A stretch of DNA of 46,969 bases, taken from Clostridiales bacterium (GTDB lineage: Bacteria > Bacillota > Clostridia > Oscillospirales > Oscillospiraceae). The DNA is taken from the NCBI GenBank assembly GCA_021201475.1, contig JAJQEV010000062.1, positions 1 through 46,969 on the forward strand, written 5' to 3'. Below, in pieces: positions 6,513 to 44,899 of this stretch. The position numbers were made by a program, and so were the translations under genes. A model generated the notes under the pieces. It did not search any database. It saw only the letters and a list, made by a program, of their open reading frames with translations, and had not been told where the DNA came from. Numbering within the stretch: the first letter of the stretch is position 1; each line of letters begins with the position of its first letter.

Positions 6513-6669
6513 CGGACTGTTGGTGTTAAAATGTTTTACAGTCAACAAGAGAGCCTTCATTTGTCATAAAGCCAACAGTTTCTGTAAATTTGTCGAGAAA
6601 AATTCACGTTATTTTCTGTCATCGTGTCCGGTTTTCGTTTACTACAGCACACCGGGTGACAGCGCACCG

Positions 6670-6699
6670 CAGGCCGGAAGGATGATTCCTTCCGGCCTG
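6670..6699. terminator. Strong hairpin after the PAP2 gene
   Basis: A perfect 13-bp stem (6670-6682 with 6687-6699) with a 4-nt loop lies 5 bp past the PAP2 stop codon. The sequence after it is not U-rich on the minus strand and only weakly so on the plus strand, so termination is likely from position rather than from a full motif. Confidence 0.5.
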
Positions 6700-6704
6700 T
6701 ATGT

Positions 6705-7271
6705 TTACTCTGCTTCCGGGGGCAGCGTGCCGCGCCTGCTTCGCTCCAGCCACTCCAGCGTCCGGCAGACCAGGACAGCAATCAGGCTCCCCACGGTCGC
6801 ACCGCCCAGAACATCGGTGGGATAATGTACCCCCACATAAAGCCGGGACAGCGCCATCAGCACCGCCGCAATTAACAGCAGGATTTTCAGCCATCGGATG
6901 TCCAGCGTCTGCCGCCAGGCCACTGCTGCGGCAAAAGCGGCACAGCTGTGCCCCGATGGGAAGGAGTAGTCCGTCGGCGCTTCCACCAGCGTCCAAAGCC
7001 CCTGGATTTGGGTAAAGGGCCTGGCGCGGCAGATGAGGTTTTTCAGCAGCTGGTTGTTGACCACCTGGCCAATCAGCAGAGCCACCAACCCCGCAACCCC
7101 CGCCCGCCGGGTGCGCCGGAAGCACAGCATCACCAGGGAGCCGGCGATCCAAATCCCGCCGTACTCTCCCAGGCGGGTCAACGGCACCAGCACGGCGGAC
7201 AGCGGCTCACAGCGCAGGTCCTGTATCAGCAGCAAAAGCTGCCCTTCCAGATGCTCAAACCAAAGGGACAC
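6705..7271 (-). CDS. PAP2-family membrane phosphatase
   Basis: A protein of 188 residues with several hydrophobic segments. It has the three phosphatase signature motifs: KNLICRARPF (motif 1, K and RP), PSGHS (motif 2, catalytic His) and SRLYVGVHYPTDVLGG (motif 3, Arg and nucleophile His). The family removes phosphate from lipid phosphates such as undecaprenyl pyrophosphate or phosphatidic acid in the membrane; which one cannot be decided here. The start is a GTG at 7271, because the ATG just upstream is followed at once by a stop. AAAGGA precedes it. A 40-bp gap separates it from the upstream HPr-like gene on the same strand. Confidence 0.92.
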   Translation of the reverse strand: MSLWFEHLEGQLLLLIQDLRCEPLSAVLVPLTRLGEYGGIWIAGSLVMLCFRRTRRAGVAGLVALLIGQVVNNQLLKNLICRARPFTQIQGLWTLVEAPTDYSFPSGHSCAAFAAAVAWRQTLDIRWLKILLLIAAVLMALSRLYVGVHYPTDVLGGATVGSLIAVLVCRTLEWLERSRRGTLPPEAE

Positions 7272-7311
7272 GCGTCACATTCCTTTCTGCATCGATCCTG
7301 CTGTCGCGCCT

Positions 7312-7548
7312 TTACACTTCTGCCTCTACGAAGTCTGCCAACAGCGCATAATCCTCTTCCAGCTGGCAGAAGACTCCGCCGTTTTCAATGATGTCCGAAG
7401 TCACGGCGGCGGTGGCGAACAGGTACTCCGACAGGGTGGATTTCAGGTTCAGCCGGTCGCCCTCCACGGTGTCATAGTACACCTCGCCCTTGCAACCGTG
7501 TACGCTGGCCAGGAATTTTGTATAGTCGATATTCTTTTTCAGTCTCAT
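7312..7548 (-). CDS. HPr-like small protein without the phospho-histidine
   Basis: A protein of 78 residues starting MRLKKNIDYTKFLASVHG, with TAGGAGG 9 nt before the ATG at 7548. The middle (GEVYYDTVEGDRLNLKSTLSEYLFATA) follows the HPr pattern of a strand, a turn, then the D/S-x-K-S helix start seen in PTS HPr proteins. The segment normally holding the phosphorylated His and the arginine after it is absent, and the first strand is short. It could be a regulatory or degenerate HPr-fold protein. The relationship is judged by eye only. It lies upstream of the PAP2 gene on the same strand. Confidence 0.6.
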   Translation of the reverse strand: MRLKKNIDYTKFLASVHGCKGEVYYDTVEGDRLNLKSTLSEYLFATAAVTSDIIENGGVFCQLEEDYALLADFVEAEV

Positions 7549-9671: not shown

Positions 9672-11138
9672 ATGGAAACACTATCCCTGCCCCTTGACCC
9701 GGCTGAGGAACTGCATGAGGAGTGCGGCATCTTTGGCATTGTCAAGGCTCCCTCCAACCTGGCCGGAGCGGCCCAGGACAGCCGCGAACCGGTCTACGAC
9801 ACCTACAACGCCCTTTACACCCTCCAGCACCGGGGGCAGGACTCCTGCGGCATCGCCGCCTGCATTGACGGCTCCATCCGGCTCCACAAAGACCAGGGGC
9901 TGGTGCCGGAGGTCTTTTCCCAGAAGGGGCTGGACAGGCTGGTGGGCGCCAGCGCCGCCATCGGCCATGTCCGCCACGCCAACAACATTGCCGACGTGAA
10001 CCCGTTAAACGCCCAGCCCATCGTGGTTCACCGCACCATCGGTTCCATGGCCCTGTGCTACAACGGCAAGCTGGTGAACAGTATGCAGTTGAGAATTGAG
10101 ATGGAGAGCCGGGGAGCCATCTTCCAGACCACCAATGACGCGGAGATCATCACCTATCTCATCGTCCGGGAGCATCTGCGCACCAACACGTTGGAGGACG
10201 CGGTCATTAACGCCATGGAGTACATGATCGGCGCGTACTCCGTGGTAGTGATGAGCCAGGACGAAATGGTGGCCTTCCGGGACCCCAACGGCTTCCGCCC
10301 CCTCTGCCTGGGCAGGGTGGGGGACAGCTATGTCTTTGCCAGCGAGTCCGCCGCCATTGACGCTTTGGGAGGCGAACTGATTCGGGACGTGCATCCCGGT
10401 GAGTTGATTTCCATTCGGAACGGGTCGCTGACCTCCCAGTTCTGCCGGGTCAAGGCGGCAAAGAGCGCCCTGTGTATGTTTGAGTTGATTTATTTCGCCC
10501 GTCAGGACTCCGTCATTGACGGCACCACCATTGGGGACGTGCGGGAGGAGGCCGGGCGCTACCTGGCCCGGAACAGCACCGTGGACGGAGACCTGGTCAT
10601 CGGCGTACCTGACTCCGGGCTGGCCGCCGCCCTGGGCTACGCCAGGGAATCCGGCATCCCCTACGGCATCGGACTGGTGAAGAACCGCTATATCGCCCGC
10701 ACCTTTATCCAGAGCAGCACCTGGGAGCGCCGCAACGCCCTGCGCATCAAGCTGAACGCCAACAGCAGCGTGGTGAAGGGGAAGCGGGTCATTCTGGTGG
10801 ACGATTCCATCGTCCGGGGCAAGACCAGCGCCCGCATCGTGCAGCTCCTCCGGGATGCGGGGGCCACAGAGGTGCATATGAAGGTCACCGCGCCCCCCTT
10901 CCGCCACCCCTGCTACTACGGCACGGCCATCCCCAGCGGGGAGCAGCTGGCCGCCTATGACCGCACCGAGGAGGAGGTCTGCCGCCTAATTGGGGCGGAC
11001 TCCCTGCAATATATGCCCCTGGAGGGGCTGCGGCACCTGTCGGAAAAGCTGAATCTGAATTACTGCGACGCCTGTTTCACCGGTAACTATATTTTGCCGG
11101 TTCCACATCTTCACTTCCAGGAGGGACAAAAGTTATGA
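9672..11138 (+). CDS. purF: Amidophosphoribosyltransferase, [4Fe-4S] type
   Basis: A protein of 488 residues catalysing the first committed purine step (PRPP plus glutamine to phosphoribosylamine). The catalytic cysteine is C18 in HEECGIFGIV, so a propeptide of 17 residues would be removed, as in the Bacillus enzyme. The PRPP loop VDDSIVRGKT is near 376-385. Four cysteines at 268, 414, 465 and 468 (the last two as CDAC) match the iron-sulfur cluster ligands of Bacillus-type PurF. The frame is open upstream into purE, but the ATG at 9672 has an AGGAG site and gives the right N-terminus. It overlaps purM by 4 bp. Confidence 0.97.
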   Translation: METLSLPLDPAEELHEECGIFGIVKAPSNLAGAAQDSREPVYDTYNALYTLQHRGQDSCGIAACIDGSIRLHKDQGLVPEVFSQKGLDRLVGASAAIGHVRHANNIADVNPLNAQPIVVHRTIGSMALCYNGKLVNSMQLRIEMESRGAIFQTTNDAEIITYLIVREHLRTNTLEDAVINAMEYMIGAYSVVVMSQDEMVAFRDPNGFRPLCLGRVGDSYVFASESAAIDALGGELIRDVHPGELISIRNGSLTSQFCRVKAAKSALCMFELIYFARQDSVIDGTTIGDVREEAGRYLARNSTVDGDLVIGVPDSGLAAALGYARESGIPYGIGLVKNRYIARTFIQSSTWERRNALRIKLNANSSVVKGKRVILVDDSIVRGKTSARIVQLLRDAGATEVHMKVTAPPFRHPCYYGTAIPSGEQLAAYDRTEEEVCRLIGADSLQYMPLEGLRHLSEKLNLNYCDACFTGNYILPVPHLHFQEGQKL

Positions 11139-27669: not shown

Positions 27670-29796
27670 TTACCTTTTGTTCCGTTTGAAATGGAACAAA
27701 GCGGCCCCAGCCAGCACACCGCCCGAAAGAACCAGCACGCCGCACCAGACGGCCAGGTTGGATTGATCGCCGGTGTCCAGCGAAGCGACAGCCGTTGTCC
27801 CGTCCGCCCCCGTTTCATCGGTGCTGTCCTCCGAAGCGGCAGCAGACTGCGCAGCATCGGCTGCGTCGTCTCCCTCCGTTGTGTCCTCGCTCCCGTCCCC
27901 GGCATCCGTGCCCGTTGGGTCAGTGGTGATTGTCGTGGTCAGGTATTGCAGCTGCTGCTCGGCGGAGGCGGCGCTGGTCACATCGCCGCAAACCGCCACC
28001 AGCCGGTAGCAGTACAGGGTGCAGGACGTTACGTCGGCATCCACATAGGACACTGTTCCACTGTAGAAGGTGGCCAGTTCCTGGAATGCGCCTCCGTTGC
28101 TGGCGCGGTAAAGAAGGTAGCGCTCCGCGCCGGGAATCTCCGTCCAGCTGACGAGGATACCCTCCTCGCTGCCTTGCAGTTCGGCCAGCACGGGGGTTGC
28201 CAGCGTGATGGAGAAGTCAGCCGTCAGGCTGCCGGTATAGCCGCCAACGCCGGTGACCAAAACGGTGGCCGTGCCCGGCTGGACATTGTCGCTATAGGTC
28301 AGGGTATAATCCTTCCCCTCTGTCAGCGTATTGTCCCCGTAGGACACAGTGACGGCAGGCGTCTGGGCAGTCCCGTCGCAGACGAACTCGGTCCCCTCCA
28401 GCGCGATGGTGCAGGTGGCCAGGTCAACAGTTTCCACCGTGTCAAGCGCCACAAAGGAAATGTTATAGGCGTCGGCGTACTGCATGGCAGAGGAGCCGCT
28501 GTACCCGTAAACGGTCAGCGCATCACAGCTGTAAAAGACGTTGGCATTCAATGTGATGCTGTTATTGTAAATCGTGATATTCTCAAGTGCCGTACAATTC
28601 TTGAAGGCATAGGCGTAGACGCTGCTGACGCCGGCAGGTAGCACCATGGCGGTCAGCTGGGTGCAGCCGGAAAAGGCACAGTATCCAATGAGGGTCAGGC
28701 TGTCAGGCAAGTCCAATGCGGTCAGGGAGGTGCAGGCTCCAAAGGCATACTCGTTAATGGCAGTCACAGTATCGGGAAGGGTAATGCTGCTCAGGCTGGT
28801 GCAGCCATAGAACAGCCCGGCACTGATAGAGGTCAGGGAGGCAGGCAGCTTAGCCGAAGTCAGGCCGGTGCAGTTTTGAAACACATAACTGCCCAGGTCG
28901 GTGACGCTGTCGGGCAGGGAGATGCTCGTCAGGCCGGTGCAGCCGTGGAAGGCGTGGCTCCCGATGGACACAACGCCGCTCTGCATGGAAACAGAGGTAA
29001 GGCCGGTGCAGTTCAGGAAGGCGCTCTCCCCTATCGTGGTCAGGCTGGCAGGAAGGGTCACAGAGGTCAGGCCAACGCAGTCCTCAAAGGCGGATTCGTC
29101 AATGACGGTGACGCCGTCAGGCACAACGTAACTCCCCTCGTAACCGGCAGGGCAGCAAATCAACTCTGTCAGCGCCGCGTTAAAGAGGACGCCGTCCACG
29201 CTGGCATAGGTGCTGTTCCCTGCCTCCACCCCGATTTCCGTCAGTGCGGTGCAGCCGGAAGTCAGCCACATTCCAATGCTGATCACACTGGCCGGAATGG
29301 TCAGAGAGGTCAGCGACGTGCAGCCATAGAAGGCTTCCCGGCCCAGCTCCGTCAGGGTTTCAGGCAGCGTCACCGAGGTCAATCCGGTGCAGTCAGCAAA
29401 CGCCCACTGCCCAACGGAAGTGATGCCCTCCGACAGGGTGATGGAGGTCAGTTGGGTGCAGTCCGCGAAGGCGCTGTCCCCAATGGCGACCACGGGATAG
29501 CCATCCAGGGACGCCGGAACGGTAAGCGCCCCGCCGCTCCCCTCATACTTGATGATGGTGGCCGCGCCGTCAGACAGGGTATAGGTGTAGCCGCTGCTCG
29601 TCGTGTATGTGGTGGCGCCGCTGTCGTCCGATTCTGTGGAATCGTCCGAGTCCACCGTAAGGTCGTCCTCCTCTGTTGCCTCGGCGGCGGACACAGCTGC
29701 GGTGTCCCCCACCTCGCCCACCGCGAAGGCGGCCGTGGACAGAGCCGCACAGAACGCCAGCGCCGCCAACAGCGCAAGCCCCTTCTTCATTTCCAC
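27670..29796 (-). CDS. BspA-like leucine-rich-repeat surface protein
   Basis: A protein of 708 residues. A signal peptide (ALLAALAFCAALSTAAFA) is followed by a Ser/Asp-rich stretch. A long run of about 23-residue LRR_5 repeats (CTGLTSVTLP and variants) covers roughly residues 95-430. A beta-sandwich segment and an FN3-like segment (ATPVLAELQGSEEGILVSW) follow, then a Thr/Asp/Ala-rich linker. The C-terminus has a hydrophobic helix and a basic tail (FHFKRNKR), with SLDTGD before it, a degenerate sortase-like motif. It is expected on the cell surface, possibly in adhesion. The GTG at 29796 has GGGGG 5 nt upstream; an ATG two codons later is an alternative. Confidence 0.88.
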   Translation of the reverse strand: MEMKKGLALLAALAFCAALSTAAFAVGEVGDTAAVSAAEATEEDDLTVDSDDSTESDDSGATTYTTSSGYTYTLSDGAATIIKYEGSGGALTVPASLDGYPVVAIGDSAFADCTQLTSITLSEGITSVGQWAFADCTGLTSVTLPETLTELGREAFYGCTSLTSLTIPASVISIGMWLTSGCTALTEIGVEAGNSTYASVDGVLFNAALTELICCPAGYEGSYVVPDGVTVIDESAFEDCVGLTSVTLPASLTTIGESAFLNCTGLTSVSMQSGVVSIGSHAFHGCTGLTSISLPDSVTDLGSYVFQNCTGLTSAKLPASLTSISAGLFYGCTSLSSITLPDTVTAINEYAFGACTSLTALDLPDSLTLIGYCAFSGCTQLTAMVLPAGVSSVYAYAFKNCTALENITIYNNSITLNANVFYSCDALTVYGYSGSSAMQYADAYNISFVALDTVETVDLATCTIALEGTEFVCDGTAQTPAVTVSYGDNTLTEGKDYTLTYSDNVQPGTATVLVTGVGGYTGSLTADFSITLATPVLAELQGSEEGILVSWTEIPGAERYLLYRASNGGAFQELATFYSGTVSYVDADVTSCTLYCYRLVAVCGDVTSAASAEQQLQYLTTTITTDPTGTDAGDGSEDTTEGDDAADAAQSAAASEDSTDETGADGTTAVASLDTGDQSNLAVWCGVLVLSGGVLAGAALFHFKRNKR

Positions 29797-34955: not shown

Positions 34956-35948
34956 TCAAATCCGGGTGCAGCTCTCCCGCTGAATGATTTTGCAGGGAAA
35001 CTCGATGCGTACCGTCTCCTGATGCCCCCGGCGGATGCGATCCAGCAATGTCTGCACCGCCATGTGCGCCATCTCCTGCCGGGGGATGTGAACGGTGGTC
35101 AGCGCAGGCTCCCGATCCCACAGCCCGTCGATGTCATCGATGGAAATCACCGAGATTGAGCGGCCAATGCGCCGCTTTTGTTCGTTCAGCGTTTGGAGAA
35201 CGCTGACTGCGGTAATATCGTTGGCGCAGAATACGGCGGAGAATCCGTCCTCCCCTTCCAGGAGCTCCAGAATAGCCCGGCAGCCCTGGGTATAGGTCTG
35301 GTCGGTGGATTTGATCAGATTATAATTGATGGGGATGTCATGCTGAATCAATGCGTTGCTATAGCCTACATACCGGCTTTCAAAGGAGCAGTCCCCGATG
35401 TAGGCGATGCTGCGGTGGCCCAGCCCGATCAGATGCTCCATCGCCAGCTCCGCCGCCTTCTTGCCGTCGCAGACCACCTCGTCCACCTTAAAATCCATGG
35501 TGTTGCGCCAGATGCCCACAATATTTCCGGTCCGGCTTTGAAGGCGTTCCAGGAGGGATTGGGCGCAGCGGCCCAGGACAATCACCCCGTCGGAATCGGC
35601 TGCCTCCAGGTCTGCTTCAGCGTAGACAACGTGTTGCAGCAGCGCCCCCTGGGCATACAGCTCTGTCCTCAGACAGTGCAGCAAATCCTCAAAAAACGGG
35701 TCCGATTCGACATCCTGAACCCGCGCCATCAGCACAGAGACCCGCAGGGTTGTTCCTGTAGGATTTTCGATGCCGCCGCCCCGCAGTGCGCGGGCGGCCT
35801 CATTGGGACGGTATCCAAGCTCGTGGGCCGCCGCCCAGATGCGCTCCTGCAGCTCCTTCGAGGCGCATTTGGGCGAGGTATTGTTGAGTACACGGGATAC
35901 GGTGGAGACGGATGTCCCCACCCTGTCGGCAATTTCTTTCAGCGGCAT
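34956..35948 (-). CDS. LacI-family transcriptional regulator
   Basis: A protein of 330 residues. The N-terminal helix-turn-helix is LKEIADRVGTSVSTVSRVLNN (residues 3-23), followed by the hinge helix ELGYRPNEAARALR. The remaining 270 residues are a periplasmic-binding-protein-like sensor domain, with VISIDDIDGLWDREPALTTVHIPRQEMAHMAV near the end as in LacI/GalR proteins. The ligand is unknown; the family usually binds sugars or nucleosides. It faces the sulfate transporter operon across a 221-bp region holding two palindromes of LacI type, so it probably controls that operon and itself. Confidence 0.93.
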   Translation of the reverse strand: MPLKEIADRVGTSVSTVSRVLNNTSPKCASKELQERIWAAAHELGYRPNEAARALRGGGIENPTGTTLRVSVLMARVQDVESDPFFEDLLHCLRTELYAQGALLQHVVYAEADLEAADSDGVIVLGRCAQSLLERLQSRTGNIVGIWRNTMDFKVDEVVCDGKKAAELAMEHLIGLGHRSIAYIGDCSFESRYVGYSNALIQHDIPINYNLIKSTDQTYTQGCRAILELLEGEDGFSAVFCANDITAVSVLQTLNEQKRRIGRSISVISIDDIDGLWDREPALTTVHIPRQEMAHMAVQTLLDRIRRGHQETVRIEFPCKIIQRESCTRI

Positions 35949-36019: not shown

Positions 36020-36031
36020 GCAAACGTTTGC
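36020..36031. promoter_or_regulatory. LacI-type operator O1 (palindrome)
   Basis: The perfect 12-bp palindrome GCAAACGTTTGC stands between the divergent promoters, 11 bp before the sbp -35 and 9 bp before the regulator's -35. The central CG is typical of LacI-family operators. The surrounding TGCAAACGTTTGCG also resembles a CcpA catabolite site. Confidence 0.72.
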
Positions 36032-36071: not shown

Positions 36072-36141
36072 GTTGGTTACAAGCAGGTCAAACTCTGAAA
36101 AATTAGACCGTTTTGGAAAAATCAATCACATATCCGTAACG

Positions 36142-36151
36142 CAAACGTTTG
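36142..36151. promoter_or_regulatory. LacI-type operator O2
   Basis: The palindrome CAAACGTTTG repeats the core of O1 and lies about 60-75 bp downstream of the expected start, just before the sbp ribosome binding site. The two centres are 121 bp apart, allowing DNA looping. Confidence 0.68.
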
Positions 36152-36169
36152 GCCGAAAAGGAGTATACC

Positions 36170-37228
36170 ATGAACTGCAATCTGCTGAAATCCAAAAAAC
36201 AGATAAAAACGGCCGCTCTGGGCCTGTGCGTATGCCTGCTGGCCGGGGCGTTGACCGGCTGCGGAGCGTCCTCCGGCGAGACCTCGGAGGAGGGCAGCGA
36301 GGTGATCGAACTGCTGAACGTGTCCTATGACCCCACCCGGGAGTTCTACGCGGCGTATAACGAGCTGTTTACCGCCTACTATGAGGAGACCTATGGTGTG
36401 ACGGTGGAGGTTACCCAATCCCACGGCGGTTCCGGCTCCCAGGCCCGCTCCGTCATCGAGGGCAACGAGGCCGATGTGGTGACCCTGGCGCTGGCCCATG
36501 ACATCACCCTGATTGAGGACGAGGGCATGATCGACGAAGGCTGGATAGACGAGTTTGAGAATAACAGCTCACCCTACACCTCCACCATCGTCTTCCTGGT
36601 GCGCGCCGGAAACGAGAAAAATATCCAGGACTGGGACGATCTGTTGCAGGAGGACGTGGACATCATCACCCCTGACCCGAAGTCCTCCGGCGGGGCCTGC
36701 TGGAACTTCCTGGCCGCCTGGTATTACGCCCAGCAGCAGTATGGCGACGACGAGAGCCAAATCAAGGAATTCATGCACTCACTCTACGCCAATGTGCTGG
36801 TCATGGACTCCGGCGCAAGAGGCGCCACCACCACCTTTGTGGAGAACGGCCAGGGGGATGTACTGATTGCCTGGGAGAATGAGGCGCTCCAGACGATGGA
36901 AGACTATCCTGACGAGTACGAAATCATCACCCCCAGCGTCAGCATCCTGGCCGAGCCCTCCGTGGCTATTGTGGATGAGAACGTAGCCGACCATGGCACG
37001 GCGGAGGTGGCAGAGGAGTATCTGGAGTACCTCTACACCGACGAAGCCCAGCGCCTTATCGGAGAGTATTACTACCGTCCCACCAATGAGGAGATTTTGA
37101 ACGAGTTCTCCGATGTCTTTGACCTGGACGTGGAGCTGTGCACCATCGACGACTTCGGCGGCTGGGATGCGGCGTATGAGAAGTTCTTCCAGGACGACGC
37201 CATCTTCGATGAGATTTATAACAGCTGA
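36170..37228 (+). CDS. sbp: Sulfate ABC transporter substrate-binding lipoprotein
   Basis: A protein of 352 residues. The signal segment GLCVCLLAGALTGCG ends in a lipobox with the modified cysteine at about residue 31. It is a solute-binding protein of the sulfate/thiosulfate type; LLNVSYDPTREFYAAYNELF, THGGSGSQARSVIEG-like (QSHGGSGSQARSVI) and NPDPKSSGGACWNFLAA-like stretches are characteristic. The ATG at 36170 follows AAAAGGAG; an upstream in-frame TTG is not supported. It delivers sulfate to CysTW. Its stop codon overlaps the cysT start. Promoter and operators lie upstream. Confidence 0.95.
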   Translation: MNCNLLKSKKQIKTAALGLCVCLLAGALTGCGASSGETSEEGSEVIELLNVSYDPTREFYAAYNELFTAYYEETYGVTVEVTQSHGGSGSQARSVIEGNEADVVTLALAHDITLIEDEGMIDEGWIDEFENNSSPYTSTIVFLVRAGNEKNIQDWDDLLQEDVDIITPDPKSSGGACWNFLAAWYYAQQQYGDDESQIKEFMHSLYANVLVMDSGARGATTTFVENGQGDVLIAWENEALQTMEDYPDEYEIITPSVSILAEPSVAIVDENVADHGTAEVAEEYLEYLYTDEAQRLIGEYYYRPTNEEILNEFSDVFDLDVELCTIDDFGGWDAAYEKFFQDDAIFDEIYNS

Positions 37229-38076
37229 TGGAGCGCAAAATGAAGAAAAAGAAACGGAACAGGGTCATTCCGGGCTTTGGCCTGACGATGGGGATTACAG
37301 TCACCATGCTGTCCCTGCTGATTTTGCTGCCGCTGGCCTCGGTGCTGATTCGTTCCTTTGAGCTGACCCCGGCGGAGTTCTGGGAGACGATCACCCGAAG
37401 CAACGTGGTGGGGGCCTTCCAGACCAGCATCCTGTGCGCCCTGCTGGCGGCGGCCATCAACTGTGTGTTTGGGCTGATTCTGGCCTGGATTCTGGTACGC
37501 TACGACTTCCCCGGCAAGCGGCTCATCGACGGCATGATTGAGCTGCCCTTCGCCCTGCCCACTGCCGTGGCGGGCATTACGCTGGCCAAAATGTACTCCG
37601 ACCAGGGGGTGCTGGGGCAGGCGCTGAACCGCATCGGCATTCAGGGCTCCTACAGCCGGGTAGGGCTGGTCATCGCCCTGGTGTTCGTGGGGATTCCCTT
37701 CGTGGTACGCTCCATTCAGCCGGTGCTGCGGAAACTGCCCCCCTCCTGCGAGGAGGCGGCGCTGACGCTGGGGGCGTCGAAGGGGTTCACCTTCCGCCAC
37801 GTCATCCTGCCGGAGCTGACTCCGGCGCTGCTGACCGGCTTCGGTCTGGCGCTGGCGCGGGGCATTGGCGAGTACGGCAGCGTCATCTACATCTCCGGCA
37901 ACAGCGCAAAAAACGGCACCCAGGTAGTCTCCTACGTTATTATGCAGAAGCTGAATTCTGGCAGCGCTGATTATGTCGGCGCCGCCGCCATCGCATTGGT
38001 GCTTTTGGCGATTTCCTTTCTGTTGATGCTCCTTCTGAATATGGTGCAGTGGTTTGCTGCCAGACGAACCCAGTGA
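37228..38076 (+). CDS. cysT: Sulfate ABC transporter permease CysT
   Basis: A protein of 282 residues with six membrane helices and a very basic N-terminus (RKMKKKKRNR). The EAA loop is CEEAALTLGASKGFTFRHVILPEL around residue 175-198. ELPFALPTAVAGITLAKMY is the CysT signature. It forms the inner-membrane channel with CysW. The ATG overlaps the sbp stop by 1 bp (TGATG). CysW follows 15 bp later. Confidence 0.95.
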   Translation: MERKMKKKKRNRVIPGFGLTMGITVTMLSLLILLPLASVLIRSFELTPAEFWETITRSNVVGAFQTSILCALLAAAINCVFGLILAWILVRYDFPGKRLIDGMIELPFALPTAVAGITLAKMYSDQGVLGQALNRIGIQGSYSRVGLVIALVFVGIPFVVRSIQPVLRKLPPSCEEAALTLGASKGFTFRHVILPELTPALLTGFGLALARGIGEYGSVIYISGNSAKNGTQVVSYVIMQKLNSGSADYVGAAAIALVLLAISFLLMLLLNMVQWFAARRTQ

Positions 38077-38091
38077 AAGGGGGGGTGCGCT

Positions 38092-38952
38092 GTGAAACGA
38101 ACGAAAAAAAGCCGTCTATCTGCGGGGCAGATTGCGCTGACCGTTACAGGAGTGCTGTTCTTTGCGGTGATGCTGGTCTGGCCGCTGGCAGAGGTACTCT
38201 ATCGGTCGCTGAAGGACGGCTGGGCGCTGTATTGGAGCGCCGTCACAGCGGAGAACACGCTCTCCGCCCTCCGGGTTACGCTGCTGGCGGCGGTCATCGC
38301 CCTGCTGGTGGACACGTTCTTCGCCCTGGCGGCCTCCTGGCTTCTGACCAAGTTTGACTTTCGGGGCAAGAGCCTGCTGACGACGCTGATCGACATTCCG
38401 TTCTCCATCTCTCCGGTCATAGCCGGCCTGTCCTTCATCATGATGTTCGGCCGCAACGGCCTGGCAACCCCTGTGGTAAACTGGTTCAACGACACCTTCG
38501 GCGTAGACATCGCCCTGGTGTTTTCCATCCCTGGCGTGGTGCTAGCCACCATCTTCGTGACCTTCCCCTATGTGCTGCGGGAGCTGCTGCCGGCGATGAA
38601 CCTGCAGGGCCGCGCCGAGGAGGAAGCCGCCGCACAACTGGGGGCGGGCGGCCTTGCCATCTTCCGCAGGGTCACGTTGCCGCATATCAAGTGGTCCCTC
38701 ATCTACGGGATGGTGCTGTGCGCGGCGCGTGCGTTTGGGGAGTTTGGCGCGGTCTATGCGGTCTCCAAGGCACGGGGCGAAACCTTTACGCTCCCCCTGG
38801 AGGTGGACGCTCTCTATATGTCCGGCGGCGCAGAGGCCATTACCCAGGCCTTCGCGGTCTCCTCCATCCTGGTGCTGATGGCGCTGGTCATGCTGATTTT
38901 GAAGAACATCGCCGAATGGCGGGCCAGAAAATCCAGTGAGCAGGAGGAATAA
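38092..38952 (+). CDS. cysW: Sulfate ABC transporter permease CysW
   Basis: A protein of 286 residues with about six membrane helices, starting at GTG (MKRTKKSRLSAGQ) after AAAGGGGG. The coupling loop AEEEAAAQLGAGGLAIFRRVTLPHIKW and the segment DIPFSISPVIAGLSFIMMFGRNG are typical CysW. GEFGAVYAVSKARGETFTLPLEVD is the characteristic C-terminal region. CysA begins 3 bp later. Confidence 0.95.
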   Translation: MKRTKKSRLSAGQIALTVTGVLFFAVMLVWPLAEVLYRSLKDGWALYWSAVTAENTLSALRVTLLAAVIALLVDTFFALAASWLLTKFDFRGKSLLTTLIDIPFSISPVIAGLSFIMMFGRNGLATPVVNWFNDTFGVDIALVFSIPGVVLATIFVTFPYVLRELLPAMNLQGRAEEEAAAQLGAGGLAIFRRVTLPHIKWSLIYGMVLCAARAFGEFGAVYAVSKARGETFTLPLEVDALYMSGGAEAITQAFAVSSILVLMALVMLILKNIAEWRARKSSEQEE

Positions 38953-38955
38953 AAA

Positions 38956-40017
38956 ATGTTCATCGAGACAAGACATCTGAACAAGCGGTTTGACGACTAC
39001 GAGGCGGCTAAGGACGTCACCTTCGGCGTGGAGCAGGGGAAGATGGCCGCCCTGCTGGGCCCCAGCGGCAGCGGCAAAACCACCATTCTCCGCATGATTG
39101 CGGGGCTGGAGCAGCAGGACAGCGGCGACATTCTGATCGACGGAAAGAACGTCAACGATGTGCCCGCCGGGGAACGCGGCATCGGCTTCGTATTTCAGAA
39201 CTATGCGCTGTTCCGCTATATGAATGTCTATGACAACATCGCCTTCGGCCTGAAGGTGCAGAAGAAAAGCAAGGCAGAGATTCACGCCAGGGTCACGGAG
39301 CTGATGCAGCTCATCGGCCTGAGCGGCCTGGAGAAACGGTATCCCAACCAGCTCTCAGGCGGCCAGCGGCAGCGGGTGGCCTTCGCCAGAGCCATCGCCC
39401 CGGATCCGGCACTGCTACTGCTGGACGAACCGTTCGCAGCCATCGATGCCAAGGTGCGCAAGGAGCTGCGGGTCTGGCTCCGGGATATGATCGTCCAAGT
39501 GGGCATCACCAGCATCTTTGTCACCCACGACCAGGAGGAGGCGCTGGAGGTGTCCGACGACATCATCATCCTCAACGAGGGCCGCATCGAGCAGATGGGG
39601 CCGCCGGCGGAGATTTACCTGCACCCCAAGACCCCCTTTGTGGCCCAGTTCGCGGGCAATTCCAGTGTGGTGGAGAGCCTTTCCGGCTTCCGGGGCTTTG
39701 AGCGCCTGCCGGCGGGACAGAAGATTTTAATTCGGCCTGAGTTCGTGGATGCGTTCAAGAAGGACAACTCCCAAATGCAGGACTATACGGACCGGGCGGA
39801 GGACGGCGTCGTCACCGGCATCAGCTTCCGGGGCAGCTTCCTGGAGGTGCGGCTGAAGGTCCACGGAATCACATTACTGACCAACCGCTCTCTGGAGCGC
39901 AGGGAGATTTGCCTTGGGGAGCATGTGAACGTCTTCCTGCACCGGGTTTACTGTATGAAGGGAGGGCGCACGCAGGTCGTGGAAAATGAGCTGCTCAGGG
40001 ATATCAGCATGGAGTAG
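38956..40017 (+). CDS. cysA: Sulfate ABC transporter ATPase CysA
   Basis: A protein of 353 residues. The ATPase domain has Walker [10 protein letters not shown] (about 35-43), Q-loop [12 protein letters not shown], signature [14 protein letters not shown], Walker [13 protein letters not shown] and the switch histidine in VTHDQEE. The C-terminal third is the TOBE-like regulatory domain of CysA/MalK proteins. It energises CysTW at the cytoplasmic face. AGGAGG lies 7 nt before the ATG. It is the last gene of the transporter operon; a 247-bp gap with a new promoter separates it from cysD. Confidence 0.95.
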
Positions 40018-40132
40018 TTCCCGCCTGCTGATGCGCAGTATCGTTGCCGACTATTCCGCTGTTTCTGACAGCATAGGTGTGATATACTCTGTGAAATTTA
40101 CAATTTTTTTACTTATCGTACACTCAGAATGG

Positions 40133-40161
40133 TTGACATCCGATAGCGAAACAAGTATGAT
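40133..40161 (+). promoter_or_regulatory. Sigma-A promoter of the cysD operon
   Basis: TTGACA (40133-40138) and TATGAT (40156-40161) are separated by 17 bp, a strong match. It suggests cysD, cysNC and the sulfotransferase can be expressed separately from the transporter. No copy of the CAAACGTTTG operator was found in this gap. Confidence 0.75.
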
Positions 40162-40264
40162 TTTAACGTCTATCAGCCAACCATGCATGATAGGGGCGCA
40201 GGTGTATACTTTCCTGCTGCATTGCGCATGGTTCAACAGAGAAACATGGGAAGGCAAGATTGAA

Positions 40265-41155
40265 ATGTCACACTTAGATGAACTGGAAGCGGAATCCATC
40301 TATATCATGCGAGAGGTGGCGGCGGAGTGCGAAAAGCCGGTTATGCTGTATTCCATCGGCAAGGACAGCTCTGTGATGCTGCATCTGGCGCTGAAGGCAT
40401 TTTACCCGGAGAAGCCGCCGTTTCCTTTCCTGCATATCGACACCACCTGGAAATTCCGGGAGATGATTGCATTTCGGGATCGAATAGCCAAGGAAAAGGG
40501 CATCGAGATGCTGGTTTACACCAACATGGACGGTGTGCGCCAGGGCATCAACCCCTTTGACCACGGCGCTGCCTACACGGATATCATGAAAACCAAGGCG
40601 CTGCGGGATGCCCTGGATCTCTACGGATTTACGGCGGCCTTCGGCGGCGGACGGCGGGATGAGGAAAAGTCCCGCGCCAAGGAACGGGTGTTTTCCTTCC
40701 GGAACAGCTCCCACGGCTGGGAGCCGAAGAAGCAGCGGCCGGAGATGTGGCAGCTTTACAATACCCAAATCCATAAAGGCGAGAGCATACGGGTGTTTCC
40801 CCTGTCCAACTGGACGGAGAAGGACATCTGGCAGTACATCATGCGGGAGCAGATTGAAATCGTGCCGCTGTACTTTGCCAAGGAGCGGCCTGTGGTATAC
40901 CGGGACGGCAACATCATTATGGTGGATGACGACCGGATGAGGCTGCGCCCAGGGGAGGAAATCCAGTGGAAAAAGGTGCGATTCCGCACGCTGGGCTGCT
41001 ATCCCCTGACCGGCGCGGTGGAGTCCGAAGCGGATACCCTGGAGGCCATCGTGGCGGAGACGCTGGGCGCGGTGGAGTCCGAACGAACCAGCCGGGTCAT
41101 TGACCATGAGGCGGCCGGCAGCATGGAGCGCAGAAAAAGGGAAGGGTATTTCTAA
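40265..41155 (+). CDS. cysD: Sulfate adenylyltransferase subunit 2
   Basis: A protein of 296 residues. The PP-loop [10 protein letters not shown] is at residues 30-39 and [20 protein letters not shown] binds substrate. It joins ATP and sulfate to make APS; the CysN half of the next protein supplies GTP energy. The reading frame is open back to 39986, inside cysA, but the ATG at 40265 has GGAAGG 10 nt upstream and gives the family N-terminus. It stops 3 bp before cysNC. Confidence 0.96.
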
Positions 41156-41158
41156 GCC

Positions 41159-43021
41159 ATGAAGAATGAGATGAACGAAAGCGGCGGACTTCTGAAATTT
41201 GTCACCTGCGGCAGTGTAGATGACGGAAAGTCTACGCTGATTGGCCATATGCTTTACGATGCCAAGCTGCTGTATGCCGACCAGGTGCAGGCGCTGGAAC
41301 TGGACAGCAAGGTGGGCAGCCGGGGCGGCAAAATGGACTATTCGCTGCTGCTGGACGGCCTGATGGCTGAGCGGGAGCAGGGTATTACGATTGACGTAGC
41401 CTACCGCTATTTCAGCACTGAGCGCAGGAGCTTCATTGTGGCGGATGCGCCGGGCCATGAGGAATACACCCGCAATATGGCTGTGGGTGCCTCCTTTGCC
41501 GATTTGGCGGTGATTTTGGTGGATGCCACCCAAGGCATCCTGCCCCAGACCCGACGGCATACCAGAATCTGCGCCCTGATGGGGATTCGGCACTTCGTCT
41601 TCGCCGTCAACAAGATGGATCTGGTGCAGTATAACCGCTATCGGTTCTATGAGCTGGAGCGGGACCTGCGGCGACTGGCGGCGGAGTTCCTGCCCGTCTC
41701 TGTGACGGTCATCCCCGTGTCAGCCACCGAGGGCGACAACGTGACCCGACCCTCCACCAATATGTATTGGTACGAAGGGCCGGCACTGCTGAGCTACCTG
41801 GAGCAGATTCAGGTGACGGATGACAGCATCAAAAACGGTTTTGTGCTGCCGGTGCAGCGGGTTTGCCGTCCGGACCGCACCTTCCGGGGCTTCCAGGGGC
41901 AGGTAGCCTGCGGTCGGCTCCGGGTGGGGGACGAGGTCACCGTTCTGCCCAGCGGGGAGACGGCCCATGTGAACCATCTTCTGATGGCAGGCCAGCCGGC
42001 AGAGCAGATTGCGGCAGGAGAGGCTGTCACCGTCCAGCTGGACCGGGAGATCGACATCTCCCGGGGCGATGTCATTATGAAGGATGCCAACCTGAATCTG
42101 GGTCGGCTGTTCACCGCGACCATCCTCTGGATGGACGATGTTTCCCTCTCTGCCGGACGCAATTACATTTTAAAGCTGGGAACCAAGCAGGTTCCGGCCA
42201 CTGTGCTGAAAATTCGGCACAAGGTGGACATCAATACCGGTTCTCGCATCCCTGCGGACCGGCTGAAAAAGAACGAGTTGGCGGTCTGCGACATTGCCGC
42301 TTCGGACAAGGTGATTTTCAACCGATTCCAGAGCCGTCACGGCGGCAAGTGCGACAAAGCGCTGGGTTGCTTCCTGCTCATTGACCGGGTCTCCAACATG
42401 ACCTCGGCCTGCGGCACGGTGATAGGCCCCCTGAGCCGTGATAAGCACCTGGTCTATCAGGAAACGGACATTACGAAGGAACTTCGGGCTGCCCAGAAGA
42501 ACCAGAAACCGTTGACGGTGTGGTTCACCGGTCTTTCCGGCTCAGGAAAATCCGCCCTGGCCAACGAGCTGGAGAAGCGTCTGGTGGCCATGGGGAAGCA
42601 CACCATGCTGCTGGACGGCGATAACATCCGCATGGGGCTGAATAAGAACCTGGGCTTTGAAGAGGCCGACCGGGTGGAAAATATTCGCCGCATTGCGGAG
42701 GTGGCCAAACTGATGAACGACGCCGGCCTCATCGTGATGACCTCCTTCATCTCCCCCTTTGAGCGGGATCGGAACAACGCCCGCGAGGTGATCGGCAGCG
42801 ACTTCTTTGAGGTTTATGTCAGCACCCCCCTGGAGGAGTGCGAGCGCAGGGACGTCAAGGGGCTGTATCAAAAGGCCCGGAACGGTGAGATTCCAGACTT
42901 CACCGGTATTTCCAGCCCATTTGAGGTACCCCAGAACGCCGAGTTGACAGTCAACACCGCAGATCAGAGCGTGGAAGCCTGCGTGGATGAAATTCTACGC
43001 TGCATTGCGGAGCGCATCTGA
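41159..43021 (+). CDS. cysNC: Bifunctional sulfate adenylyltransferase subunit 1 / APS kinase
   Basis: A protein of 620 residues. The N-terminal GTPase part has the P-loop GSVDDGKST (18-26), the G3 motif DAPGHEEY and NKMD. From about residue 453 a second P-loop GLSGSGKS (458-465) begins the APS kinase domain, with DGDNIRMGLNKNLGF and FISPFERDRNNAR. The protein therefore makes APS with CysD and phosphorylates it to PAPS. Fusions of this kind (CysNC, NodQ) are typical of routes that need PAPS. It lies 3 bp after cysD and ends in a stop that overlaps an ATG (TGATG). Confidence 0.96.
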   Translation: MKNEMNESGGLLKFVTCGSVDDGKSTLIGHMLYDAKLLYADQVQALELDSKVGSRGGKMDYSLLLDGLMAEREQGITIDVAYRYFSTERRSFIVADAPGHEEYTRNMAVGASFADLAVILVDATQGILPQTRRHTRICALMGIRHFVFAVNKMDLVQYNRYRFYELERDLRRLAAEFLPVSVTVIPVSATEGDNVTRPSTNMYWYEGPALLSYLEQIQVTDDSIKNGFVLPVQRVCRPDRTFRGFQGQVACGRLRVGDEVTVLPSGETAHVNHLLMAGQPAEQIAAGEAVTVQLDREIDISRGDVIMKDANLNLGRLFTATILWMDDVSLSAGRNYILKLGTKQVPATVLKIRHKVDINTGSRIPADRLKKNELAVCDIAASDKVIFNRFQSRHGGKCDKALGCFLLIDRVSNMTSACGTVIGPLSRDKHLVYQETDITKELRAAQKNQKPLTVWFTGLSGSGKSALANELEKRLVAMGKHTMLLDGDNIRMGLNKNLGFEEADRVENIRRIAEVAKLMNDAGLIVMTSFISPFERDRNNAREVIGSDFFEVYVSTPLEECERRDVKGLYQKARNGEIPDFTGISSPFEVPQNAELTVNTADQSVEACVDEILRCIAERI

Positions 43022-43230
43022 TGGATGCGGAGCGGCACAGGCTTCGGACGCTTCTGACGGCAGTGCGCTTCGCCTGTGACAACCGTCTCCTGTCTGAACG
43101 CTCGGTTTGCGGAGCGTCTCTGCACCGACTCAGGGTGTCGGGAGATCTTCACCTTTATCAAAAGCATGGTACGGCCCATTGTGTCCCTGTTTATAGGCAG
43201 CACCCGCCGGAGGCTGCCGCAGAAGGATAG
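43021..43230 (+). CDS. Possible small protein coupled to cysNC
   Basis: A frame of 69 residues whose ATG overlaps the cysNC stop (TGATG), with GCGGAG upstream. It is basic and cysteine- and histidine-containing (HRLRTLL, FACDN, CGASLHRL). No family is recognised, and an overlapping frame is also open in 43076-43261. The space before the sulfotransferase (43022-43280) could simply be non-coding or a decayed gene. Reported only because of the start overlap. Confidence 0.25.
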   Translation: MDAERHRLRTLLTAVRFACDNRLLSERSVCGASLHRLRVSGDLHLYQKHGTAHCVPVYRQHPPEAAAEG

Positions 43231-43280
43231 CAATGTGCTCCCTGCCTTTTTTGGCGGCTGACGCCAGGAGGTATTAGAAC

Positions 43281-44297
43281 ATGGGGTATCCCGATTTTGT
43301 CTGTATGGGCTTTCAAAAGTGCGGCACCACAACGCTATATGCGCTTTTAAAGCAGCACCCGCAAATCGCCCTCTGCCGGGACGTAAAGGAGCCGATGTAC
43401 TACCGTGTGCCCGCCTGGCACATCATCTGCGGCGGAACGCGGTTCTATAACTGGCGCTACTTCGGGCACCTCCAGCCGGAGGACCCCAGATTGACGGGCG
43501 AGGTCAACGCGGGGCTGACCTACGGCGGCTGCGCGAAAAAGGTCAGCCAGACTATGTCGCCGGACACAAAAATGATTTTCATGATGCGCAATCCGGTGGA
43601 CCGCAGCTATTCCGCTTACCGGTACTTTCTGGCCAGGGGCTTCCTGAGCGCCCGGGACATCCGTTATGATGCGGAGCACGGTCACGCCCAAGGCTTTGAC
43701 CACTACGTCCATTTTGTGCTGGACAATCCCAGGCGGCGGAGCCAGGTGATGAAGCGGCAGATGAAGTATATTGTGCTGTCCCAGAGCAATTACGCCACCT
43801 GCATTTCCGAGTACCTGGAGCACTTTGACCGAAAAAATATGAAGTTTGTCCTCTTTGAGGAGTTTATCCGGGATCAACACACCGCCTGCCAGGAGATTTA
43901 TGACTTCGTCGGCGCGCCTGATGCTCCGGAGATTTCCTATAACCTGAAAAGCAACGAGGGCAACGAGTGCGCCGTCTCCCCACTATGCGCCAAAAAGCTG
44001 TACTGGGTTAAGGGAATGAACTACCTGTTTTACGACCTCTGCGCCATGCCCTATTGGGGGCCGAAGCTCTATGAGCGGTTCCGCCGGTATTTCCTGCGGG
44101 TGCGGTCGGAATGCCTGGCACAGGACATGGACAAGAGCAAGGTACTGCCGGAAACCAGGACCTACCTGATGGACTATTTTGATCGGGAGATTTGCCGCGC
44201 AGAGGCGCTGACCGGGCGGGATTTGCATGGAGTCTGGGGACGGCCTCCGGCATCGTCCGGCAGAACAGTGGGTCTTGCTACCGGAGCGGAGCCCTGA
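43281..44297 (+). CDS. PAPS-dependent sulfotransferase
   Basis: A cytoplasmic protein of 338 residues with no signal or membrane helix. The 5'-phosphosulfate loop is GFQKCGTTTLY at 10-20, with the catalytic-type lysine K13. The 3'-phosphate site is RNPVDRSYSAYR at 103-114, with R103 and S111. This is the Sulfotransfer_1/NDST-like layout. It should move the sulfuryl group from PAPS to an alcohol or amine of an unknown acceptor. It is 259 bp after cysNC, on the same strand, without a clear terminator between, and an AGGAGG site (43268-43273) precedes the ATG. Its supply of PAPS is encoded directly upstream. Confidence 0.92.
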   Translation: MGYPDFVCMGFQKCGTTTLYALLKQHPQIALCRDVKEPMYYRVPAWHIICGGTRFYNWRYFGHLQPEDPRLTGEVNAGLTYGGCAKKVSQTMSPDTKMIFMMRNPVDRSYSAYRYFLARGFLSARDIRYDAEHGHAQGFDHYVHFVLDNPRRRSQVMKRQMKYIVLSQSNYATCISEYLEHFDRKNMKFVLFEEFIRDQHTACQEIYDFVGAPDAPEISYNLKSNEGNECAVSPLCAKKLYWVKGMNYLFYDLCAMPYWGPKLYERFRRYFLRVRSECLAQDMDKSKVLPETRTYLMDYFDREICRAEALTGRDLHGVWGRPPASSGRTVGLATGAEP

Positions 44298-44533: not shown

Positions 44534-44899
44534 CTGCTATTGCAATATCCCGCTGCGACCTGAGCGAACCCTGACCTTCGCGGAGCGCGTTGCAATCTGT
44601 GAACTGCCTCTTATGAATGGGCGGGTGGAACTGAGGGGCACACTGTTTGCAGAACCGTATGAATCGAGCCATGGAAGAACTGAAGCGGCGGATCGATTCC
44701 GGCGAATATGGCAATCATCGACATCCGGTGGCGTCCCCCTCCCCGCCGAGAGGCGTGCTGAAGGACCAATGTGCAGGCTGTCGGTTGTTGTCTTTTCACT
44801 CATTTCAGCCCCAGCACGGTTTACACAAGCAGTCGGGCAAGAGCGCCCGTCTTTTTGACCCCTTTGCCAACATTTTTTACCTGGCAGGCACAATGTGGG
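44534..44899. other. No gene recognised; possible decayed sequence
   Basis: This stretch between the MITE-like element and the MATE promoter has only short overlapping frames on both strands. A frame holding MEELKRRIDSGEYG (near 44670) looks protein-like for a short distance and then loses any pattern. No repeat, RNA or control element was seen. Confidence 0.4.

Follow-up and report, generated by a model that had tools for sequence, protein, structure and literature searches.

The contig JAJQEV010000062.1 of a Clostridiales bacterium (46,969 nucleotides; "the window" below means this whole stretch) carries a seven-gene locus in which the sulfate transporter genes sbp-cysT-cysW-cysA are followed by cysD, cysNC and a sulfotransferase gene. 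The best explanation for this locus, which we favour with modest confidence, is a dedicated, non-assimilatory sulfation module with a glycan as acceptor. In the proposed mechanism, the Sbp-CysTWA transporter would import sulfate, CysD and the CysN part of CysNC would form adenosine 5'-phosphosulfate (APS), and the CysC part would convert this to 3'-phosphoadenosine 5'-phosphosulfate (PAPS). A cytosolic sulfotransferase would then sulfate a hydroxyl or amino group on a sugar of the carbohydrate acceptor. This acceptor is most likely a glycan of the cell surface, or the lipid-linked precursor of one, with export to follow. The steps differ in certainty. PAPS synthesis by CysD and CysNC is predicted with near certainty, PAPS-dependent transfer by the sulfotransferase with high confidence, and sulfate uptake by Sbp-CysTWA is very likely; it is also very likely that activated sulfate would not be used for cysteine in the source organism. 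The acceptor is probably a carbohydrate; the odds that this would be a glycan of the surface, and not some free or foreign sugar, are slightly short of even.

The seven genes of the locus

The earlier note, made from the sequence alone, had named the seven genes below. All of them are present on the plus strand, and profile searches back their identities.

36170..37228, plus strand: sbp, sulfate-binding lipoprotein of an ATP-binding cassette (ABC) transporter (NF008022, 409 bits; cut-off 288)
37228..38076, plus strand: cysT, permease (TIGR02139, 333.6 bits; cut-off 246.1)
38092..38952, plus strand: cysW, permease (best match TIGR02140, 284.2 bits, below the cut-off of 329.1)
38956..40017, plus strand: cysA, ATPase (TIGR00968, 340.1 bits, slightly below the cut-off of 342.75)
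40265..41155, plus strand: cysD, ATP sulfurylase small subunit (TIGR02039 and NF009214, above cut-off)
41159..43021, plus strand: cysNC, ATP sulfurylase GTPase subunit fused to APS kinase (NF004035, 831 bits; cut-off 715)
43281..44297, plus strand: PAPS-dependent sulfotransferase (PF00685, 63.8 bits, cut-off 22; PF13469)

With TIGR00969, the model for sulfate permeases in general, CysW scores just over the cut-off (241.2 versus 240 bits), and CysNC also passes the apsK model TIGR00455, its APS kinase domain comprising residues 451-599. The start of CysD, chosen from homologue length, is probably at 40265, which gives the same 296 aa as in the relative L055. ATP sulfurylase and APS kinase are encoded together with the sulfotransferase, and the unit contains no PAPS/APS reductase or sulfite reductase, which was checked across the whole genome.

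Absence of a reduction branch

The source genome (G000; 2.69 Mb in 129 contigs, completeness 100, with the window as contig C114) was searched with profiles, using 14 genomes as a control set. The only match to PF01507 is the CysD of this locus. The sulfite reductase domain NIR_SIR (PF01077) has no match in the source genome and is matched in 11 of the 14 controls, and AprA, searched for with the protein of a congener at a threshold of 1e-20, was not found. The claim that the locus has no reduction branch therefore holds for the whole genome, in which we found neither an assimilatory operon (CysH or AprAB plus sulfite reductase) nor a route from sulfate to cysteine. The absence of cysteine synthase, also claimed, is correct only within the locus: four PALP-family matches are located elsewhere in the genome, and cysteine can therefore probably be made from sulfide.

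Five genomes of the source genus contain the window-type unit and are referred to as type A (G000, G002, G004, G020 and G028; four of the five are 94-100% complete). Neither the sulfite reductase domain nor AprA was found in any of the five, which supports the proposal of a sulfation unit that does not serve cysteine synthesis. Among the seven other sulfotransferase carriers of the genus (type B), NIR_SIR is present in 7/7 and AprA in 5/7, and among the 20 congeners without the sulfotransferase NIR_SIR is present in seven and AprA in none. Ordinary assimilatory sulfate metabolism, with reductases that were missed because they are divergent or lie in an assembly gap, would be in line with the existence of such genes in type B congeners. 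The lack of matches in the five type A genomes, four of them nearly complete, and the joining of the cysNC fusion to a sulfotransferase, which fits sulfation, make this explanation very improbable. The presence of cysDNC in a clostridial genome is in itself no proof of sulfate assimilation.

A reductive counterpart, the operon sbp-cysTWA-aprA-aprB-cysD-cysN, is present in congener loci L057 and L059 (G001 and G027). This operon looks assimilatory and has a dissimilatory-type APS reductase. Of the two reductase subunits of L059, AprA scores above the cut-off of NF005331 (847.5 versus 557 bits) and below that of TIGR02061 (359.1 versus 641.75 bits), and AprB is a weak match (29.9 bits versus a cut-off of 135.65).

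The source genome encodes one PF00459 protein, which scores 148.7 bits as inositol monophosphatase and 72.3 bits as CysQ, both below cut-off; these scores bring it closer to inositol monophosphatase than to CysQ. In family locus L087, an HD_3/YfbR-like nucleotidase gene (10099-10707) adjoins the sulfotransferase gene on the opposite strand, and further TauE-group loci have genes of similar size at this position. We can only guess that the L087 protein recycles 3'-phosphoadenosine 5'-phosphate (PAP).

A sulfotransferase with a predicted heparan-sulfate-type fold

The sulfotransferase contains the motifs GFQKCGTTTL, KEP and RNPxxRxxS, and its AlphaFold model has a predicted local distance difference test (pLDDT) score of 89.9. 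It groups with heparan-sulfate NST/3-OST-type enzymes in sequence profile, predicted fold and PDB matches, the modelled fold being the same as theirs, with matches clearly above those to other sulfotransferase groups. Residues K13, E37, R103 and S111 are invariant in an alignment of 47 sequences (the window, 40 of the 66 family loci described below and six distant loci), and they align to 3-OST-3 and to 3RNL of Alicyclobacillus. Their predicted roles are those of the 5'-phosphosulfate loop Lys, the catalytic Glu and the 3'-phosphate Arg and Ser. Compared with this fold group and 3RNL, the window enzyme is 15-30% identical, bacterial and presumably cytosolic. It is the only PF00685 match in the source genome, and 2/14 control genomes have a match.

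The earlier note had drawn an analogy with steroid sulfation in Bacteroides. A host-derived lipid or steroid would then be the acceptor, as for BT_0416, and the gene logic is indeed the same as that of BT_0412-BT_0416 as described in the available text of PMC9417993. The analogy does not extend to the enzyme: the window sulfotransferase groups with the NST/3-OST type and is not closest to the steroid enzymes SULT2A1/2B1 in sequence or fold, a comparison that covered these SULTs and not BT_0416 itself. We regard this acceptor as improbable.

Co-occurrence and gene order in the source genus

Co-occurrence was surveyed in 98 genomes, 32 of the source genus and 66 outside it. The sulfotransferase was found in 12 of the 98, all belonging to the genus (12/32). 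Up to 34 APS kinase candidates were scored per genome, and matches with E <1e-50 were called strong in the source genus. By this measure, a strong APS kinase is present in 12/12 sulfotransferase carriers and 0/20 non-carriers; other congeners gave weak matches only (E 5e-5 to 1e-3), apparently noise from the P-loop. CysD (E <1e-50) is present in 11/12 carriers and 0/20 others.

The type A order cysD-cysNC-sulfotransferase is found in G000, G020, G004 and G028, and in G002 it is cut by a contig end. The transporter genes sbp-cysTWA adjoin the unit only in G000 and G020, and are not adjacent in G004 and G028. The type B order is an unassigned gene, PAP2, NUDIX, sulfotransferase, ADP-ribosylglycohydrolase, APS kinase and radical SAM; here, a stand-alone APS kinase is the only linked sulfate-activation gene, and cysD is on other contigs. 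The earlier note had named relatives with the sulfotransferase unlinked from the cys genes as evidence against its proposal, and the genus provides this evidence in part. Type A keeps the unit, but the seven type B congeners have the sulfotransferase unlinked from cysD, and two of them carry the reductive operon of L057 and L059. In G022, the ATP sulfurylase must be shared with reduction, because the only CysD found adjoins AprA.

Within the bacterial family of the source genus, the cysD-cysNC-sulfotransferase arrangement apparently arose more than once. In loci L062, L063 and L064, from other genera of the same family, a Sulfotransfer_3-type gene is located directly beside a distant cysD-cysNC pair (34-37% identical to that of the window).

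The wider family and its phylogeny

Scanning of named genomes yielded 80 loci, of which 66 are clear members at 36% identity or more; the 14 distant ones (L130-L132, L134, L136-L145) were excluded. The number 66 refers to loci rather than genomes, JAJPXQ contributing two. Genes in the fetched loci were called by a codon-score caller trained on the window genes, which truncated starts and missed genes in low-G+C loci. The cysNC gene is directly upstream of the sulfotransferase gene on the same strand in 27/66 loci, cysD is present in 31/66, and an APS kinase gene is found anywhere in the locus in 41/66. The available stretch of the other 25 loci has no APS kinase, which counts in part against the linkage proposed in the earlier note. 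TauE/SafE is encoded within 450 bp of the sulfotransferase in 21/66 loci and ChrA within 200 bp in 8/66. At least one of APS kinase, TauE and ChrA is present in 54/66 loci and none in 12, three of which are on contigs of 3.3-7.1 kb.

We also counted neighbours without preselection, using all reading frames within 6 kb of the sulfotransferase over 15 groups that we cut from the tree. Among the first 40 clusters, those recurring in at least four groups are cysNC/cysC (11), cysD (10), ABC ATPases (6), TauE (5) and ChrA (4). The generic ABC ATPase cluster (six groups, nine loci) is real yet unspecific. Several recurrent clusters were excluded by eye, since they appear to be shadows, antisense or in a wrong frame, of the genes for the sulfotransferase, the cys proteins and TauE; the remaining recurrent clusters were judged to be such shadow frames. 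Since ABC, TauE and ChrA each recur beside the sulfotransferase, sulfate-related transport looks exchangeable (ABC, TauE/SafE or ChrA); we infer that TauE and ChrA serve sulfate in these loci.

The family is rare overall: when 391 genomes were sampled from the class, only 5, including the source genome, matched the sulfotransferase at 1e-20, and the best other match is 42% identical. The tree has 68 rows: 63 of the 64 loci of L066-L129, L135, the window and the outliers L130, L131 and L140; L121 and L133 were left out. The window enzyme and its four type A relatives form one group (100/99). Type A lies inside a 17-row set (99/94) together with L069-L076, L078, L084 and L086 (Lachnospiraceae or Clostridiales labels) and L077 (Coriobacteriaceae label). 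Type B is a separate 8-row group (100/100) outside a 38-row set (99/96) that contains type A. The simplest reading of this topology is that the source genus acquired the sulfotransferase on at least two occasions. A possible alternative is that two old copies were lost differentially, against which none of the 32 genus genomes gave two sulfotransferase matches. Transfer between families is likely, and the family label of L077 is possibly a binning error. Blautia sp. An81 has the linked unit, and Eubacterium sp. An11 has the sulfotransferase alone in the stretch examined; we take both to be chicken isolates. The L121 copy is probably broken or mis-assembled, because its sulfotransferase reading frame (6602-7544) is split in two.

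Neighbouring genes and the acceptor

The order cysD-cysNC-chrA-sulfotransferase followed by a family-2 glycosyltransferase is found in L088 and L103, which are in different tree groups, and in L096 a family-2 glycosyltransferase gene lies 1.2 kb downstream of the sulfotransferase gene. In L075, L078 and L121, TauE and then two LytR-CpsA-Psr proteins are encoded downstream, and in type B a PAP2 phosphatase gene is near the sulfotransferase gene. These neighbours favour a surface glycan as acceptor.

A diet-derived acceptor is unlikely, though with some evidence in its support. Plant glycosides or aglycones would be sulfated in the gut, for detoxification or solubilisation, after glycosidases had released or trimmed them. 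A glycoside hydrolase (GH) family 3 gene is directly upstream in 5/66 loci (L079-L083), and L082 has the order GH2, FGGY sugar kinase, rhamnose isomerase, class II aldolase, GH3 and sulfotransferase. L055, the closest relative of the window, has two Gfo/Idh/MocA oxidoreductase and two xylose-isomerase-like genes after the sulfotransferase gene. Moreover, two loci, L072 and L101, are, according to PMC5697889, from metagenome-assembled genomes of the koala Zagget, a eucalypt feeder. Against this, the five GH3 loci represent a single sulfotransferase group, the fold is of the carbohydrate type rather than the phenol type, the enzyme also occurs in genomes of other sources, such as Eubacterium sp. 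An11 and Blautia sp. An81, and the sugar genes of L055 are deleted in the window:

44577..44738, no strand: deletion scar replacing four sugar-modifying genes of L055 (alignment with L055)

The flanks of the scar match L055 up to 13308 and from 17639, and window positions 44643-44738 match L055 16018-16117, so that about 100 bp of one of the four genes remains. Enrichment of the family in koalas was also considered, and is not used as a claim because the host of the similarly labelled metagenome-assembled genomes of the JAJP/JAJQ/JAJB series (52/66 loci, sorted by hand by accession prefix) was not confirmed.

A sulfated secreted small molecule, either a glycolipid or a natural product, like the rhizobial Nod factor made with NodPQ and NodH, also has little probability, as no biosynthetic cluster recurs beside the gene among the clusters of the neighbour count.

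Several observations weigh against a sulfation module acting on a surface glycan. CysA, and CysW by its specific model, score below their cut-offs. The window has no recognised glycosyltransferase or wall-polymer gene beside the module, and no acceptor gene recurs across the 15 groups among the clusters of the neighbour count. Glycan-assembly neighbours were noted, by inspection rather than systematic count, in six of the 66 loci (L088, L103, L096, L075, L078 and L121); the three LytR-CpsA-Psr loci belong to one sulfotransferase group, and such neighbours could mark chance insertion sites. The fold does not fix the acceptor, 3RNL being listed merely as "Sulfotransferase", and, as PF00685 alone was searched genome-wide, other sulfotransferase types may be encoded in the genome. 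A PAP-recycling phosphatase was not pinned down: the sole PF00459 protein falls far from the CysQ cut-off (72.3 versus 228.8 bits), and DHH-type PAP phosphatases were not searched for. The type B ATP sulfurylase can be shared with reduction, as in G022. Finally, 6 of the 66 genomes outside the genus (G048, G052, G057, G064, G074 and G087) lack this sulfotransferase and yet have a strong APS kinase (E 2.5e-48 or better); in G048, G052 and G057, the kinase is fused to cysN and adjoins a Sulfotransfer_3-type gene.

Taking the preferred glycan reading further, we tentatively suggest that gut Clostridia might make sulfated cell-wall or capsular glycans by means of a horizontally moving cassette that combines PAPS synthesis with a sulfotransferase of the heparan-sulfate type and a sulfate-related transporter that can be exchanged. 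A Gram-positive commensal would thereby gain a surface resembling host sulfated glycans. The genus would apparently have acquired the enzyme twice, and the window lineage would keep sulfate activation only for sulfation.

The MATE transporter encoded beside the sulfotransferase was considered as a required product exporter and rejected, because it is present in congeners without the sulfotransferase (G005, G008 and G016, 89-91%; G006, 46%) and, at 1e-120, was found in 4/12 carriers and is missing in eight (G001, G002, G004, G019, G022, G026, G028 and G031). In Lachnospiraceae-labelled L069, L071, L072, L073 and L074, a MATE copy 76-78% identical to that of the window lies 4.5-4.8 kb from the sulfotransferase gene.

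Comparison with known systems

In Sinorhizobium, the CysD/CysNC homologues NodPQ supply PAPS to one sulfotransferase, NodH, which modifies a carbohydrate-based molecule. The logic of PAPS supply to one sulfotransferase would be the same in the window; there, no Nod gene cluster was seen and a sulfate transporter is included.

For Bacteroides, the available text of PMC9417993 envisions BT_0412 as a sulfate importer and BT_0413-0415 as PAPS makers; BT_0416, found by its similarity to human SULT2A1/2B1, makes cholesterol sulfate. According to the same paper, one of the PAPS-dependent sulfotransferases of human gut bacteria alters host cholesterol and cholesterol sulfate in mice. Both BT_0411-BT_0416 and the window locus belong to gut bacteria and bring genes for putative sulfate import, for PAPS synthesis and for a sulfotransferase close together. 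They differ in phylum, in the use of Sbp-CysTWA by the window and in the source genome, where no reduction genes were found; the window enzyme is NST/3-OST-like by fold, whereas BT_0416 is SULT-related by description. Cluster VI of Campylobacter jejuni HS:19 is described in the available text of PMC8743553 as containing cysD, cysN, a putative sulphate permease, cysC and a putative sulfotransferase gene, with a proposed role in the sulfation of biomolecules such as the capsule. As in the window, ATP sulfurylase, APS kinase, permease and sulfotransferase genes are in one cluster; it differs in its location downstream of a capsule locus with a sialyltransferase, in its permease and in the poly-G/C tract of its putative sulfotransferase gene.

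We found no report of this unit in Clostridia in the open-access PMC literature, which does not prove its absence from print. A gut survey with BT_0416 as query places PAPS-dependent sulfotransferases mainly in Bacteroides and Parabacteroides (PMC10932419, available text). If a PAPS-sulfation unit with an exchangeable transporter is spread over Lachnospiraceae-, Oscillospiraceae- and Coriobacteriaceae-labelled records, sulfated molecules of the gut would have a second source, and one with a heparan-sulfate-type enzyme may place sulfate on sugars, not sterols. It also offers named strains for testing and a bacterial model of the NST/3-OST fold.

Regulation and transcript structure

The following putative regulatory features were detected:

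34956..35948, minus strand: LacI-family regulator, candidate local regulator, divergent from sbp (PF00356/PF13377)
36020..36031, no strand: palindrome GCAAACGTTTGC, LacI-type operator-like, in the LacI-sbp gap (site search)
36141..36152, no strand: further operator-like site with one mismatch, within the leader of sbp (site search)
40133..40161, plus strand: promoter-like TTGACA-17-TATGAT between cysA and cysD (11/12 positions)

Allowing one mismatch, two operator-like sites were found versus 0.13 expected, with two or more in 1/100 shuffles, and the 10-bp core of both is kept in L055. The divergent LacI-sbp order recurs in the Coriobacteriaceae-labelled sulfotransferase carrier L077 (sbp 59% and LacI 39% identical). 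Promoter-like sites of this kind number 10 in the whole stretch versus 4.9 in shuffles. The site before cysD is kept in L055, which has the same upstream gene, and also in L053 despite a different upstream gene, and cysD-cysNC-sulfotransferase therefore looks like a transcript of its own. The locus would thus probably form two transcripts, this one being separate from sbp-cysTWA. Rfam, searched at gathering thresholds over the whole window, gave no match, and hence no S-adenosylmethionine (SAM) riboswitch or T-box by this test; the RNA fold of the cysD leader is unremarkable (z -0.58). Elsewhere in the window, positions 27670-29796 encode a BspA-type leucine-rich-repeat protein of 708 aa, which is probably a surface protein.

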